Source: Cytophagaceae bacterium
GTDB taxonomy: Bacteria; Bacteroidota; Bacteroidia; Cytophagales; Spirosomataceae
Direction of reading: 5' to 3'
Assembly: GCA_947450365.1 (NCBI GenBank)
Contig: CANFVE010000003.1
Coordinates: 1-64,000, forward strand
DNA length: 64,000 bases
The notes under the pieces were generated by a model that was not told the origin of the DNA, made no database searches, and worked only from the letters and a program-made list of their open reading frames with translations. Below, piece after piece: positions 2,733-60,222 of the stretch; the stretch's first letter is position 1; the number at the start of each line of letters is the position of its first letter. The position numbers and the translations under genes are program-made.

Positions 2733-3494
2733 TTAAAATTTAGCGTCTGCGGGCTTGATGTTCGGACGGATAATTTTAAGCCATGTCAATAATTTCACCA
2801 TGGGGTAAGTCGGGTCGAATTCGAACCATTTGGTAGCGAAATTAACGCGATTAGGCAATTTATGGTGATTATTTTGAAATAGCTCACCCATCATGAGGAC
2901 ATCAAAAACCAATGAATTTTTAGAATGATCATGATTGTCATAATTTTGATAACCATATTTATGTCCTGACCAATTCACAATCGCCCCGTGGACAGGCCCC
3001 ATTAAAAAATGCACAGGTAATAAAAAGAAAAATGCCCAATGCATATCAAAATAAACGAAGGCGACGATGTAAAAGGAAGCATAGGCAACACCCCAACCGA
3101 TGCGTGAAATCCAAGAATCTCCTATTTTTTCGATGGTTTTAGAAACTGGATAATCATGCTCAAAACGTTCTTCAACCTTCGTTTTCCGATTTAAAACCGC
3201 ATTGTAAATATCTTTTGTTTTCCACATCATCGTAAAGACATTGCTTGAAAACATAGGCGAATGGGGATCTTTCTTCGTATCCGAGAATGCATGGTGCATC
3301 CGATGTAATATCGCATAGGCCCGAGGGCTTAAAAAACTGGATCCTTGAGATAAATAGGTTAAAAAGTAGAAAAATTTCTCCCAAAATTTATTCATTAAAA
3401 ACATCTTGTGCGCTGAATACCGGTGCAGGAAAAATGTTTGACTAAATAGAGAAACGTACCAATGAATAATGAATGCGGGAAGAACTAATTGCAT
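2733..3494 (-). CDS. acyl-lipid/acyl-CoA desaturase, membrane di-iron type
   Basis: 253 aa membrane-bound fatty acid desaturase. Three histidine boxes are visible: HRYSAH, HRMHHAFSD and a late NNHHKLPN. Hydrophobic segments between them fit the usual four-helix topology. Family role: O2-dependent introduction of a cis double bond (delta-9 type by resemblance) into acyl-CoA or membrane lipid acyl chains, which sets membrane fluidity. The open frame could begin 15 codons earlier, but an exact -7 box (TATATTTG on the minus strand) lies inside that extension, so I use the ATG giving MQLVLPAF. It has its own promoter, so it is probably not driven only from the glnN run upstream. The regiospecificity is not proven. 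Confidence 0.85.
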   Translation of the reverse strand: MQLVLPAFIIHWYVSLFSQTFFLHRYSAHKMFLMNKFWEKFFYFLTYLSQGSSFLSPRAYAILHRMHHAFSDTKKDPHSPMFSSNVFTMMWKTKDIYNAVLNRKTKVEERFEHDYPVSKTIEKIGDSWISRIGWGVAYASFYIVAFVYFDMHWAFFFLLPVHFLMGPVHGAIVNWSGHKYGYQNYDNHDHSKNSLVFDVLMMGELFQNNHHKLPNRVNFATKWFEFDPTYPMVKLLTWLKIIRPNIKPADAKF

Positions 3495-3516
3495 ATTGAT
3501 TTTTTTATTTAAAGAA

Positions 3517-3524
3517 CAAATATA
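3517..3524 (-). promoter_or_regulatory. -7 promoter element for the desaturase
   Basis: Minus-strand TATATTTG exactly matches TAnnTTTG and ends 22 nt before the chosen desaturase start. It decides that start: the longer open frame would be translated through its own promoter. No clear -33 TTG. Confidence 0.6.
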
Positions 3525-3565
3525 CATAGCTTCGTGCATATTCTCACATTGATTTTTATCATAAA

Positions 3566-54837: not shown

Positions 54838-56727
54838 TTATTTAACTTCTTCAAAGGCTACATCTTCTGCGCCTCCATCGTTTGTATCGGTTGGTTCAGC
54901 TGGGTTTTGACCTGCATCACCCGTATTTCCAGCTGCATACATTTCTTGTGAAGCAGCAGTCCAAGCCGTATTCAATTTTTCTAATCCAGCGTCTATAGAA
55001 GCCAAATCCTGAGAAGCATGCGCTACTTTTAATTCAGCTAATGCACCTTCAATGGCCGTTTTATTGCCCTCTGATAATTTTTCGCCGTATTCCTTTAATT
55101 GTTTTTCGGATTGGAATATCAACGCATCGGCTTGATTTACTTTCTCAACACGCTCCTTTTCGATTTTATCCGTTGCTTCATTCGCTTTCGCCTCATTACG
55201 CATTTTTTCGATTTCCTCATCAGTTAAGCCACTTGACGCTTCAATGCGGATTTTTTGCTCCTTCCCTGTTCCTTTATCTTTGGCAGATACCTGTAAAATT
55301 CCGTTCGCATCGATATCAAATGTTACTTCGATTTGAGGAACTCCACGTTGTGCCGGTGGTAAACCATCTAAGTGGAAGCGTCCTAATGAACGGTTATCCT
55401 TAGCCATTGGGCGTTCACCTTGTAAAACATTGAGTTCTACAGAAGGTTGGTTATCCGCTGCGGTCGAGAATACTTCAGATTTCTTGGTTGGGATGGTTGT
55501 ATTCGATTCGATTAATTTGGTAAATACACCACCCATGGTTTCAATACCTAATGATAGAGGTGTTACGTCTAATAACAAGACATCTTTTACTTCACCCGTT
55601 AACACACCGCCTTGAATCGCTGCTCCAATCGCCACTACCTCATCAGGATTTACTCCTTTGGAAGGTTTTTTACCAAAGAATTTTTCTACTTCTTCTTGAA
55701 TGCGAGGTATCCGCGTCGATCCCCCCACTAAAATTACTTCATCGATATCGGCATTCGTATATCCAGCATTTTTCATGGCACGCTTACATGGTTCCAAGGT
55801 GCGTTGAATTAAGCTATCGACTAATTGTTCAAATTTTGCGCGGCTCAATGAACGAACTAAGTGTTTTGGAATACCGTCTACGGGCATGATATAAGGCAAA
55901 TTAATTTCCGTCGATGCGCCAGAACTTAATTCGATTTTCGCTTTTTCAGCAGCTTCTTTTAAGCGCTGTAAGGCCATTGGATCTTTGCGTAGGTCGATTT
56001 TTTCATCGGCAATAAATTCTTCGGCTAACCAATTGATAATCACCTGGTCGAAATCATCACCACCTAAGTGCGTATCTCCATCCGTCGATTTTACTTCAAA
56101 TACGCCATCGCCTAATTCTAACACGGATACGTCGAAAGTTCCGCCTCCTAAGTCAAAAACGGCAATTTTCATATCTTGCCCTTTTTTGTCTACCCCATAG
56201 GCTAGCGCTGCGGCGGTCGGTTCATTGATAATACGCTTAACTTCTAAACCAGCGATTTGACCAGCTTCTTTTGTGGCTTGACGTTCCGCATCATTAAAAT
56301 AAGCAGGTACAGTAATGACTGCTTCGGAAACTGTTTGACCAAGATAATCTTCAGCTGTTTGCTTCATCTTGGTTAGAATTTGCGCGGAGATTTCTTGCGG
56401 TGTATATAAACGATCGCCGATGCGTACACGTGGTGTGTCGTTGTTTCCTTGTTCAACATTGTAGGAAATTGTTTTTAATTCAGATCCTACCTCTGAATAC
56501 TTTTTACCCATAAAACGTTTTACAGATGAAATGGTGTTTTGTGGATTTGTGATGGCCTGACGTTTGGCAGGATCACCTACTTTACGCTCACCATTGTCTA
56601 AGAATGCTACAATAGAGGGTGTCGTTCTTCTTCCTTCTGAGTTCGCAATAACCACGGCCTCATTTCCTTCCATTACCGCCACACATGAATTGGTGGTTCC
56701 TAAGTCAATTCCAATAATTTTTCCCAT
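54838..56727 (-). CDS. dnaK: molecular chaperone DnaK (Hsp70)
   Basis: 629 aa. Nucleotide-binding domain with [30 protein letters not shown] and [14 protein letters not shown]; substrate-binding domain with [17 protein letters not shown] and [10 protein letters not shown]; helical lid and an acidic C-terminus ending in EEVK. ATP-driven folding chaperone. The open frame extends 24 codons upstream, but the family begins with [14 protein letters not shown] and the extension holds the promoter and an inverted repeat. It stands alone: dnaJ and grpE are not next to it. Confidence 0.97.
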
Positions 56728-56784
56728 GATAGTTTTTAATTTTTTCCCCATATTGTCAAGGATTGTGCCATCATTTTCTGATGC

Positions 56785-56816
56785 TGACATTTCTGACATA
56801 TTGTCACAAAAACGTA
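56785..56816 (-). promoter_or_regulatory. probable heat-shock operator/promoter upstream of dnaK
   Basis: The array TGACA-N4-TGACA-N3-TGTCA; the inner TGACATATTGTCA (56794-56806) is a perfect 5-3-5 inverted repeat. On the minus strand a -7-like TACGTTTT (56816-56809) sits two bases upstream, so the repeat covers the likely transcription start, where a repressor would act. It is not CIRCE (different sequence). A further TGTCA lies at 56754-56758. Regulator unknown. Confidence 0.6.
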
Positions 56817-56896: not shown

Positions 56897-57895
56897 ATGT
56901 CTGAAATTTCTGATTTTACTTGGGTAGAAGGATCCGAACCCCATCGGTTACGTACAAGAGAAATTATTAAAAAGCATCCAGAGGTAAAAAAGTTGATTGG
57001 AAAAAATCCCAATACCATGTACTGGATTTTTGGCTGTGTGGGTCTTCAATTAGCCATGGCCTATTTTGTCAAGGATTATTCTTGGTGGATGATTATCGCC
57101 GCTGCTTGGTGTATCGGTGCTTTTCCCGTACATACTTTATTTGTTTGTATTCACGAATCAGCACATAATTTGATTTTTAAGAAGAATTCTTGGAATGTAT
57201 TTGCGGGGATCGTGGCGAATTTTCCTTCTTTAGCTCCTACCGCCATATCTTTTAAAAATTATCATTTAAAACATCATGCCTTTCAAGGTGTACATGAATT
57301 AGATGCGGATTTACCGGATTATTGGGAAGCTAAATTGATTAATAATTATTTTATTGGAAAGATTATTTGGTTGGCCTTGTTTCCCTTTTTTCAAGGAATT
57401 CGTACGATTCGTTGCATCGAATTGGCTGTTATCGACCGATGGGTTATTATGAACATCATTGCTCAAATTACCTTTGATTTTTTGATTGTTTACTTTTGGG
57501 GTTGGGCTGCTTTAGCCTATTTAGGCCTTAGCTTTTTGTTTTCGGTGGGTTTGCATCCGCTAGGCGCGCGCTGGATTCAAGAGCATTATTTGGTGCTTGA
57601 TAAAAACCAAGAAACCTATAGCTATTATGGAGGATTAAATGGCATAAATATGAATGTGGGTTATCACAATGAGCATCATGATATGCCTTCTGTACCTTGG
57701 AATAACCTTCCTAAACTCAAGGCTGCTGCTCCTGAATTCTATGAGAACTTAAAGTACCATACGTCGTTTGTGAAATTGTTTTTCACTTTTATCTTTTCTC
57801 AAGAAGTGGGATTGTATTCGCGCATTGCACGAAAAGAACGAGGTGGAGTTGCCTTGATCGACAAATCCACCCCAGATATAGATTTGGTTAGCTAA
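56897..57895 (+). CDS. DEGS-like membrane desaturase (sphingolipid delta-4 type candidate)
   Basis: 332 aa. Di-iron desaturase with histidine boxes H86-ESA-H90, H123-LKH-H127 and HNEHH (257-261), and four to five hydrophobic spans. Beyond the boxes it follows the eukaryotic dihydroceramide delta-4 desaturase DEGS collinearly, as I remember that family: N-terminal DFTWVEGSEPH and EIIKKHPEVKKLIG, ANFPSLAPTAISFKNYH, GLHPLGARWIQEHY, ETYSYYG-LN and NVGYHNEHHDMP, then EFYENL. Bacteroidota do make dihydroceramides, so desaturation of a sphingoid base is plausible; a plain fatty acyl substrate is the alternative. Own promoter; single-gene unit, no other sphingolipid gene nearby. Confidence 0.82.
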   Translation: MSEISDFTWVEGSEPHRLRTREIIKKHPEVKKLIGKNPNTMYWIFGCVGLQLAMAYFVKDYSWWMIIAAAWCIGAFPVHTLFVCIHESAHNLIFKKNSWNVFAGIVANFPSLAPTAISFKNYHLKHHAFQGVHELDADLPDYWEAKLINNYFIGKIIWLALFPFFQGIRTIRCIELAVIDRWVIMNIIAQITFDFLIVYFWGWAALAYLGLSFLFSVGLHPLGARWIQEHYLVLDKNQETYSYYGGLNGINMNVGYHNEHHDMPSVPWNNLPKLKAAAPEFYENLKYHTSFVKLFFTFIFSQEVGLYSRIARKERGGVALIDKSTPDIDLVS

Positions 57896-57897
57896 TC

Positions 57898-60222
57898 TTA
57901 GGCCTCTGTTTCCTCGGGCAATAGAATTAATTCTTTACTGTTTGCATTTAGGAAATAGGCATTTCCATAGACGTTTATAGTGCAGGCTGTCGAAGAAAGG
58001 TTTTCAATTTCCACGCCTATTTCCTTTACGCGAACCTGGATTTGATTTTCCCTAAAATTTATTTTAAAGGAATATTCAGTCCATTGTTTTGGTAAAAACG
58101 GAGCAAAATGAAGACTTCCATTTTCGACCACCATTCCCCCAAATCCCTTCACGATCGACATCCAGGTGCCGGCCATGCTGGTGATGTGGCAACCGTCTTC
58201 TGTATCATTATTATAATCATCTAAATCCAAGCGGGCCGCACGTGTATAGAATTCGTAGGATTTATCCTCCTTGCCCAATTTGGCTGCTAAAATACTATGC
58301 ACACAAGGACTTAAGGAAGATTCGTGAACGGTAATCGGTTCATAGAAATTGTAATTTCTTTCCAATTCTTCCTGGCTAAAGTCTTTTTCAAAGAAATAAA
58401 ATCCTTGTAAAACATCTGCTTGTTTGATATAACAGGAACGTAAAATTCGATCCCAAGACCAATTTTGATTGATTGGCCTCTGCCCTGCTGGAATCGTATC
58501 AACGGCAGATATTTCTTTGTCTAAAAATCCATCTTGTTGAAGAAAAATGCCACGATTTTCGTCCTTCGGATAATACATTTGCTCTGCAATTTTCTTAAAG
58601 AGATATAATTCTTCTGGATGAAATGCGGTACTTTTTAATTTTTCGGCAGATATTTCAGGGAATTGTTCCGTTATTTCTTGATGGACTTCGATGACGTAGC
58701 GAAGGCACCAAGCTGCTAAATAATTGGTATACCAATTATTGTTCACGTTATTTTCGTATTCATTAGGCCCTGTGACACCTAACATGACGTATTGTTGCTT
58801 GTCCTCGGACCAATTTACGCGTTGTGCCCAAAAGCGTGCAATGCCTAAAAGGACTTCCCAACCATATTCTGCCAAATGCTTTCGGTCACCCGTATAATTG
58901 ACATAATCTTGAATGGCATACGCAATGGCCCCATTTCGGTGAATTTCTTCAAAGGTGATTTCCCATTCGTTATGGCATTCTTCGCCATTCATGGTAACCA
59001 TCGGATATAAGGCAGCTCCCTTTGAAAAGCCTAATTTTTCGGCATTTTCGATGGCACGGTCTAATTGTTTCCAACGGTAAATCAATAAATTTTTCGCAAC
59101 ATCGGGTTCTGCCGTAGATAAATAGAACGGAATACAATATGCTTCTGTATCCCAATAGGTACTTCCGCCATATTTTTCCCCTGTAAAACCTTTTGGACCT
59201 ATATTTAGTCGGTCATCTTCGCCTGTATAGGTTTGGTTTAATTGGAAAATATTAAAACGAATGCCTTGTTGAGCCGCCACATCCCCTTTGATGATGATAT
59301 CGTTTATTGCCCATTTTTTAGCCCAGGCTTCTTCTTGTTCGGCAAGCATTTGATTATAGCCTTTCGCATGAATACGGTCTACATATTGGATGGCTTTATT
59401 TTCTAATTGGTCTTTGGGGTGATTTTCAGAACTTAAATTTACCGCAAACTTAATAAGTGTTATGGATTGATTCACCTGAGCATCCAATTCATAGTGAAGT
59501 GCTGCGTATTTTTCTTTTGTGACAGCGTGTGCTCGAACGCTTAAGGATTTGCCTCCTTGTTTAAACTTGATTCGTTGGCCTGTAATTACCTCAAAACCTG
59601 TTTTTTTCGTTCTGGACCAAACAAAGGATGTATTTTCTTGAGCATATACCTTTACTTCCTCCCAGAATTTTTCATCGTAGTTTGCATCTTTATTTTTGAT
59701 GTTACCATCGATAAAGACTTGAAAATTAATTTTACCAGAAAAATTTAAAGGGGTAATCGTGTAGGAAATGACGCCGGATTCATCATCCGCCATGCTGTTC
59801 AAACGGATGGATTCAATGCGAATTTGTTTACCGTTAGTTAATTCAATATCACATGTTCGAAGGATAAAGCCCTTCTGCATGTTTAATTCGCGATAAAATG
59901 AAAGGATTTTGCTGGTATGTAAGTCCACAATCACGTTATCAATCGTAACTTCTATTCCATTCCAATTGGCCGCATTTAATACCTTGGCGAAATATTCTGG
60001 ATATCCATTTTTCCACCAACCAACACGCGTCTTATCAGGATAATAAACCCCTGCTACATAATTTCCTTGCAATGATTTTCCGGAATAAGTTTCCTCGAAA
60101 GAACCGCGCTGGCCCATGCGGCCATTTCCGATAGAAAATATGGATTCGGTAACTTCGTTGTACTCAGGGTGAAATTGGTCTTCTATGACCTTCCATTCGT
60201 CCAGTTTTAAATACTGCTTCAT
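57898..60222 (-). CDS. GH65 glycoside phosphorylase, probably maltose phosphorylase
   Basis: 774 aa, the three-part GH65 layout: N-terminal beta-sandwich (SIGNGRMGQRGSFEE), linker, (alpha/alpha)6 barrel and short C-terminal sheet. The general acid is E488 in VTGPNEYENNVNNNWYTN, matching the known E487 of Lactobacillus maltose phosphorylase. The loop NGEECHNEWEITFEEIHRN fits maltose rather than trehalose enzymes as I know the family. Splits maltose plus phosphate into glucose and beta-glucose-1-phosphate, cytoplasmic. The beta-phosphoglucomutase gene lies directly upstream on the same strand; amylase and carrier genes are divergent beside it. Confidence 0.92.
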   Translation of the reverse strand: MKQYLKLDEWKVIEDQFHPEYNEVTESIFSIGNGRMGQRGSFEETYSGKSLQGNYVAGVYYPDKTRVGWWKNGYPEYFAKVLNAANWNGIEVTIDNVIVDLHTSKILSFYRELNMQKGFILRTCDIELTNGKQIRIESIRLNSMADDESGVISYTITPLNFSGKINFQVFIDGNIKNKDANYDEKFWEEVKVYAQENTSFVWSRTKKTGFEVITGQRIKFKQGGKSLSVRAHAVTKEKYAALHYELDAQVNQSITLIKFAVNLSSENHPKDQLENKAIQYVDRIHAKGYNQMLAEQEEAWAKKWAINDIIIKGDVAAQQGIRFNIFQLNQTYTGEDDRLNIGPKGFTGEKYGGSTYWDTEAYCIPFYLSTAEPDVAKNLLIYRWKQLDRAIENAEKLGFSKGAALYPMVTMNGEECHNEWEITFEEIHRNGAIAYAIQDYVNYTGDRKHLAEYGWEVLLGIARFWAQRVNWSEDKQQYVMLGVTGPNEYENNVNNNWYTNYLAAWCLRYVIEVHQEITEQFPEISAEKLKSTAFHPEELYLFKKIAEQMYYPKDENRGIFLQQDGFLDKEISAVDTIPAGQRPINQNWSWDRILRSCYIKQADVLQGFYFFEKDFSQEELERNYNFYEPITVHESSLSPCVHSILAAKLGKEDKSYEFYTRAARLDLDDYNNDTEDGCHITSMAGTWMSIVKGFGGMVVENGSLHFAPFLPKQWTEYSFKINFRENQIQVRVKEIGVEIENLSSTACTINVYGNAYFLNANSKELILLPEETEA

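Follow-up and report, generated by a model that had tools for sequence, protein, structure and literature searches.

A DEGS-type membrane desaturase gene in a bacterium related to Aquirufa and its possible role in sulfonolipid synthesis

The locus described here raises the question of which lipid is modified by a protein resembling the eukaryotic sphingolipid delta-4 desaturase (DEGS) in a bacterium related to Aquirufa. The source assembly (G000) amounts to 2.66 Mb in 61 contigs and is 93.6% complete, and the gene was found in a stretch of 64,000 nucleotides that was analysed as a whole (hereafter, the window).

Gene structure, domains and predicted fold

The DEGS-like (Lipid_DES/FA_desaturase) membrane desaturase gene, defined by ORF calling and Pfam, occupies positions 56897..57895 of the plus strand. 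Its ORF is intact, with ATG as the start codon and 332 codons (332 aa). The divergent upstream neighbour (54838..56799, minus strand) is an ORF that we take to be dnaK-like, and the convergent downstream neighbour (57898..60222, minus strand) is presumably glycoside hydrolase family 65-like (GH65-like). As the ORFs were called, 97 bp separate the gene from the former and 2 bp from the latter, and it looks like a single-gene transcription unit. Given these neighbours, a sphingolipid operon including the desaturase was ruled out in its own genome.

The hmmscan search against Pfam revealed an N-terminal Lipid_DES domain (PF08557, 'Sphingolipid Delta4-desaturase (DES)') at 56909..57013 (plus strand, residues 5-39), where it scored 54.5 bits (E 7.6e-15; curated cut-off 23), followed by an FA_desaturase domain (PF00487) at 57083..57754 (plus strand, residues 63-286), with 78.8 bits against a cut-off of 29.7 (E 7.1e-22). 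No NCBIfam model scored over its cut-off with this protein. The three histidine boxes, all on the plus strand, are HESAH (57152..57166, residues 86-90), HLKHH (57263..57277, residues 123-127) and HNEHH (57665..57679, residues 257-261), the last of them inside NVGYHNEHHDMP (residues 253-264). The segment GLHPLGARWIQEHY (57548..57589, plus strand, residues 218-231) bears the subfamily signature [AG]RW[IV]QEH, and further motifs are DFTWVEGSEPH (residues 6-16), GLHP (218-221), ETYSYYG (239-245) and EFYENL (280-285). All the boxes and other motifs listed in the initial annotation were present, in the order given there, and the three boxes are kept in 102 of the 102 family members collected (101 distinct sequences).

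The desaturase is the sole PF08557 match of its genome. PF00487 gave five matches, this one included, at four gene places, and the others are without Lipid_DES. A second FA_desaturase-type ORF was also noted in the window (2733-3539, minus strand, 268 aa); it is DesA-family-like, with 115.7 bits against a cut-off of 400, and has no Lipid_DES domain. Membership in the FA_desaturase superfamily would suit an enzyme acting on some other Bacteroidota lipid, such as phospholipid fatty acyl chains or N-acyl amino acids (glycine or ornithine lipids), but the Lipid_DES domain scored over its cut-off and is missing from the other FA_desaturase matches of the genome, and we regard such a substrate as improbable.

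The AlphaFold2 model had a mean pLDDT of 78.7 and a pTM of 0.82; pLDDT fell under 50 near the third histidine box (residues 254-260) and at the C-terminus. Its closest structures were two chains of chloroplast motor complexes (Z 17.2 and 16.0), followed by the alkane monooxygenase AlkB with Z 15.1 (254 residues) and 13.9 at a structural identity of 13-16%, while the likeness to the stearoyl-CoA desaturase SCD1 was weak (Z 5.5-5.7, 206 residues at 5.7, structural identity 11-12%). Foldseek returned one match at E up to 0.001, and the sequence search of the PDB retrieved no solved DEGS relative at E up to 1. The predicted fold agrees with the membrane di-iron desaturase/monooxygenase class represented by AlkB and SCD1.

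A di-iron site can perform desaturation or hydroxylation. It must therefore be considered that the protein might be a C4-hydroxylase, giving a phyto-type base, or might combine desaturation and hydroxylation as DEGS2 does, in either case acting on the same sphingoid-type base. The same eukaryotic family does include DEGS2, described as a delta4-desaturase/C4-monooxygenase (PMC13161914), but nothing in our analysis favours hydroxylation, and we consider this activity quite unlikely.

Relationship to the eukaryotic enzymes and distribution in bacteria

For comparison with human DEGS1 we used a provisional sequence that does not come from a database, and the outcome is treated as a lead. This sequence is 41% identical to the window protein over 318 residues with five gap positions, whereas the nearest desaturase paralogue of the genome reaches 22% over 201 residues, and the motifs follow in order. 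The proposal that human DEGS1 carries the same items in the same order agrees with the provisional sequence, and the whole-length likeness to DEGS proposed with it is supported by both Pfam domains, by this alignment and by the tree described below. With DEGS1/DES1 and DEGS2/DES2 the protein shares the Lipid_DES domain, the three histidine boxes and the GLHP, ETYSYYG and NVGYHNEHHD motifs in order. The electron donor of the eukaryotic DEGS enzymes is cytochrome b5.

The likeness has its limits. Where the window protein reads ARWIQEHY and VPWNNLP, the provisional DEGS1 reads HFIAEHY and IPGKSLP, and the two stand on separate branches; the bacterial genome, moreover, is without a recognisable serine palmitoyltransferase (SPT). 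A maximum-likelihood tree of 23 rows, in which the only eukaryotic sequence was the provisional one, the root was not inferred and the branches of DEGS1 and L197 were long, separated DEGS1, L191 and L197 from the 20 others, the window protein among them, with support 100/99. The signature [AG]RW[IV]QEH after the HP motif was present in 100 of the 102 collected bacterial members (101 distinct sequences), while HFIxEH takes its place in L191, L197 and the provisional human DEGS1. Because the tree separates these groups and the signature follows that split, the sequences place the window protein within the wider DEGS (Lipid_DES) family but in a bacterial sister subfamily, outside the eukaryote-type (HFIxEH) one. 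The hope that this gene would bear on the origin of DEGS is weakened, since the single provisional DEGS1 groups with L191 and L197 and not with the subfamily of the window protein. It must be noted that the kinship to DEGS is in itself no discovery, as the family is known in Pfam and bacterial members are common.

Both L191 (genome G559, contig C14) and L197 (genome G656, contig C13) are Bacteroidia proteins with the eukaryote-type signature. In G656 a single contig of 393 kb carries members of both subfamilies, a finding that speaks against contamination. Giant-virus relatives were also sought as a source of eukaryote-type DEGS, and a pattern scan of viral contigs gave 22 matches and no relative; one of its two patterns was specific to the bacterial subfamily, so that the scan says little on eukaryote-type DEGS.

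Relatives are encoded at 63 loci of the named collection. Those 80-96% identical to the window protein belong to Aquirufa and to metagenome-assembled genomes (MAGs) of Cytophagaceae and Cytophagales, those 78-84% identical to Sandaracinomonas, Arcicella, Pseudarcicella, Flectobacillus and Xanthocytophaga, and those 63-70% identical to Hymenobacter and Saprospiraceae; at 46-54% identity, relatives were found in MAGs of Verrucomicrobiota, Bdellovibrionota, a gammaproteobacterium and an unclassified bacterium. Two labels deserve a comment: the protein labelled 'Cellulophaga sp. BC115SP' (L057) is nearly identical to those of Flectobacillus, and the contig of L068, from a MAG labelled Thermoanaerobaculia, is Saprospiraceae-like. 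Lipid_DES was detected in 33 of the 59 genomes of the first draw (own genome included), in 52 of the 242 sampled genomes of the order (12 of 103 genera) and in 34 of the 396 sampled from the class (22 of 199 genera), where 33 of the 34 were over the cut-off and the single one below it held no family member. None of the 14 control genomes had it. Carriage by mobile elements was discarded, as tblastn searches of 50,697 phage records and 72,556 records of plasmids retrieved nothing; the desaturase is a regular chromosomal gene.

Gene clusters of relatives and long-chain-base synthases

In all six Saprospiraceae-type loci (L062-L065, L067 and L068) the desaturase belongs to a cluster of genes on one strand (for example L063:4963-9994) in the order FA_hydroxylase, SPT, GNAT-type acyltransferase, desaturase and NAD-dependent epimerase, with the epimerase before the desaturase in L062; the Pfam names of the cluster genes were taken from L062-L064 only. 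These desaturases are 65-70% identical to the window protein, belong to the same subfamily and have all histidine boxes. Two of the six clustered SPTs pass the NCBIfam SPT cut-off of 640, and the other four fall just short of it at 634-639; all six are 59-62% identical to the Sphingobacterium SPT and have the Spt-type Ala. A comparable arrangement was found in Verrucomicrobiota (L081:8004-13031), where the genes lie in a row in the order desaturase (51% identical to the window protein), FA_hydroxylase (a 111-residue ORF), SPT-like alpha-oxoamine synthase, CDP-alcohol phosphatidyltransferase and GNAT. By analogy with Caulobacter, in which the acyltransferase bCerS and the reductase CerR complete ceramide (PMC11087976), the Saprospiraceae and Verrucomicrobiota loci appear to be ceramide clusters that include a hydroxylase and a desaturase. 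Additionally, the L081 synthase has Cys at the position of SulA-Lys/Spt-Ala, and a myo-inositol-1-phosphate synthase-like gene follows the cluster in L062 and L068, where inositol sphingolipids might be made.

Since near relatives sit in SPT clusters, a sphingoid-type substrate is likely for the desaturase on grounds of homology, and this position also speaks against the other Bacteroidota lipids considered above. In a broad quick tree the Saprospiraceae cluster members form one clade nested among the Cytophagales ones (SH-aLRT 94), so these loci represent few independent events; in a narrower careful tree they branch outside the Cytophagales members. In contrast to the Saprospiraceae genes, that of the window stands alone between its dnaK-like and GH65-like neighbours. 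Likewise, at 38 more loci from carriers in the class, no SPT, SulA, acyltransferase, hydroxylase or epimerase of the clusters was seen within ~8 kb of the desaturase (four stretches being shorter on one side). This isolation, in the window and in the 38 loci sampled, would fit a phospholipid or N-acyl amino acid substrate, and so would carrier G078 (L078), which shows neither SulA nor SPT and only a protein with a glycine C-acetyltransferase-like residue pattern, taken as such.

The genome of the window has 13 PF00155 matches, three of which match the Bacteroidota SPT model, with 287.6, 221 and 33.9 bits against the cut-off of 640. An SPT over this cut-off was found in none of the 38 genomes of the genus (own genome included), while the control, Bacteroides ihuae, exceeded it. 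For the first of the three, the protein L091 (contig C21), the best solved relative was 7u7h (606 bits), the structure of A. finegoldii SulA (PMC9304779), ahead of 28eh (552 bits), entitled 'Cysteate-C-fatty acyltransferase', and the Sphingobacterium SPT 3a2b (235 bits). L091 has Lys at the column of SulA Lys281, a residue which, set against the Ala of Spt, is called distinguishing (PMC9304779). Judged by these comparisons, it is a SulA-type cysteate acyltransferase and not an SPT. The second match to the SPT model resembles BioF (369.8 bits, cut-off 426.45). L094, the third, was dismissed as a hidden SPT because it gave only weak BioF-like scores.

The initial annotation had expected this lineage to make ceramide rather than dihydroceramide. 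For its own genome that expectation is unsupported, as SPT was not found and the only candidate is of SulA type; the lack of this entry gene of sphingolipid synthesis, one of the outcomes that the annotation itself had named as refuting, points to the analogue of dihydroceramide among the sulfonolipids, which are sulphur-containing counterparts of sphingolipids. The protein could still be a dihydroceramide delta-4 desaturase giving ceramide if sphinganine-based lipids were made, or were taken up from algae or other bacteria. Its near relatives beside SPT in Saprospiraceae agree with such a role, as does the description of Flectobacillus major as sphingolipid-producing (PMC5155239), but none of the 38 genomes of the genus has an SPT over the cut-off, and serine is not a substrate of the SulA of A. 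finegoldii (PMC9304779). We consider it unlikely.

The order sample, of 242 genomes at least 90% complete, was also searched for SulA (E up to 1e-120) and SPT (E up to 1e-125), which were found in 222 and 21 genomes, respectively. All 52 carriers of the desaturase have SulA, 49 of them without SPT; the other three (G085, G100 and G189) do have SPT, in keeping with ceramide as the product. Counting genomes and ignoring relatedness, the co-occurrence of desaturase and SulA had p 0.009, and 18 of the 20 genomes without SulA belong to one family (f21). As SulA is near-universal in the order, this co-occurrence is weak evidence, and it is the absence of SPT that carries information. Desaturase and SPT were not significantly associated in the order sample as a whole (p 0.58). 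An exclusion between them within the family of the window appeared by genome (SPT in 0 of 21 carriers and 13 of 20 non-carriers, Fisher p 4e-6) and vanished by genus (0 of 5 and 2 of 6, p 0.45), and it was not relied on.

Twenty-four carrier genomes, picked from the 63 loci, were inspected in detail. A Lys-bearing SulA-type protein was present in 18 of them, and the other six, G078 among them, are labelled Verrucomicrobia, Bdellovibrionota, Gammaproteobacteria or unclassified. Eleven of the 24, from Aquirufa, Sandaracinomonas, Arcicella, Pseudarcicella, Flectobacillus and Hymenobacter, have SulA and no SPT-like protein, which argues against a dihydroceramide substrate; their further matches, at ~206-243 bits, are in the range of the BioF-like protein of the window's genome. 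Besides SulA, Xanthocytophaga (L110; G067, contig C11) has an SPT-like synthase that is 46% identical to the Sphingobacterium SPT and whose diagnostic position is occupied by Cys. Reportedly, 4(E)-unsaturated capnine or sphingoid bases occur in flavocristamide A, Cyclobacterium marinus WH and Flectobacillus major. The two Flectobacillus genomes with the desaturase, neither of them F. major, have SulA and no SPT, and the primary paper behind the sphingolipid description of F. major is also cited for sulfonolipids (PMC9304779, PMC10191378); there must be a difference in the lipids, in the species or in the enzyme.

Cysteate supply and proposed function

A sulfonolipid reading requires cysteate, and in this regard no known cysteate synthase (CapA model NF053679) was found among the five PF00291 proteins of the genome. 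The best score with the CapA model, 193 bits against 600, came from a protein that fits CysM over the cut-off; CysM, IlvA, TrpB and ThrC were assigned over their model cut-offs, and the fifth protein is a weak ACC deaminase/D-cysteine desulfhydrase relative. A cysteate synthase beside SulA was also sought and rejected, as the CysM and ThrC of the genome gave no match in the SulA regions of seven genomes. Given that the assembly is 93.6% complete, a missing gene or another cysteate route is possible, and another route exists in Alistipes (PMC10191378). The lack of a cysteate synthase among the PF00291 proteins lowers our confidence in the sulfonolipid reading and lends some weight to the dihydroceramide one, and for the same reason the organism is not filed as a proven sulfonolipid producer.

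The desaturase was found in none of seven SulA regions of 20 kb. Along with the missing lipid-gene linkage at the 38 further loci, the carriers that do have SPT, carrier G078 and the sphingolipid description of F. major, this counts against the sulfonolipid reading. Near SulA, MaoC-like and DAGK_cat lipid kinase-like genes were observed in six genomes, those of the window, Aquirufa, Sandaracinomonas, Arcicella, Flectobacillus and Pseudarcicella (L100:7567-10504; L165-L168 and L170), but not in that of Hymenobacter (L169); a part in sulfonolipid metabolism is possible for both. In addition, a protein on contig C12 is a remote homologue of the GNAT acyltransferase of the clusters (27% identity, E 3.4e-41). 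It matched neither a Pfam nor an NCBIfam model and is a candidate for the N-acyltransferase.

Capnine or N-acyl-capnine is the most likely substrate in this genome because it is the only 2-amino-3-hydroxy base with a visible first enzyme. We tentatively favour, at a confidence somewhat short of even, a DEGS-type desaturase making 4,5-unsaturated sulfonolipids. The integral-membrane enzyme of the DEGS (Lipid_DES) family, with a putative di-iron centre, would use O2 to abstract hydrogens from C4 and C5 of a long-chain base of the 2-amino-3-hydroxy type, as DEGS does, leaving a 4,5-double bond whose position and geometry are predicted from this kinship. The base would most likely be capnine, formed by the SulA-type synthase from cysteate. 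Its N-acylation could precede or follow desaturation, and the outcome would be a 4,5-unsaturated sulfonolipid, equivalent to ceramide but bearing a sulfonate. With the sulfonolipid pathway, comprising SulA (cysteate fatty acyltransferase) and 3-ketocapnine reductase (PMC9304779, PMC11211663), the genome shares the SulA-type synthase with its diagnostic Lys. The available portions of PMC9304779, PMC10191378 and PMC11211663 mention no sulfonolipid desaturase step, and the window gene would be that step. A search of titles and abstract starts in the open-licence literature likewise found no paper on a bacterial DEGS homologue, no function for the bacterial members and no sulfonolipid desaturase. 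Slightly more tentative is the extension to the family: in Cytophagales with SulA and without SPT the gene would make 4,5-unsaturated N-acyl-capnines, while its Saprospiraceae relatives would serve SPT-made sphingolipids, so that one family would act on both lipid classes.

If true, this would name a gene for the unsaturated bases of bacterial sulfonolipids, lipids that have been tied to gliding, choanoflagellate development and host inflammation (PMC9304779, PMC10191378), and the gene could be deleted in culturable Aquirufa, Arcicella, Flectobacillus or Hymenobacter. Within Bacteroidia, members of the DEGS family are widespread and fall into two subfamilies, one of which groups with the provisional eukaryotic sequence, and these provide a concrete data set for the question of where DEGS came from. 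Finally, the SPT clusters of Saprospiraceae and Verrucomicrobiota that include the gene lead us to expect bacteria whose ceramides are of the sphingosine or phytosphingosine type.
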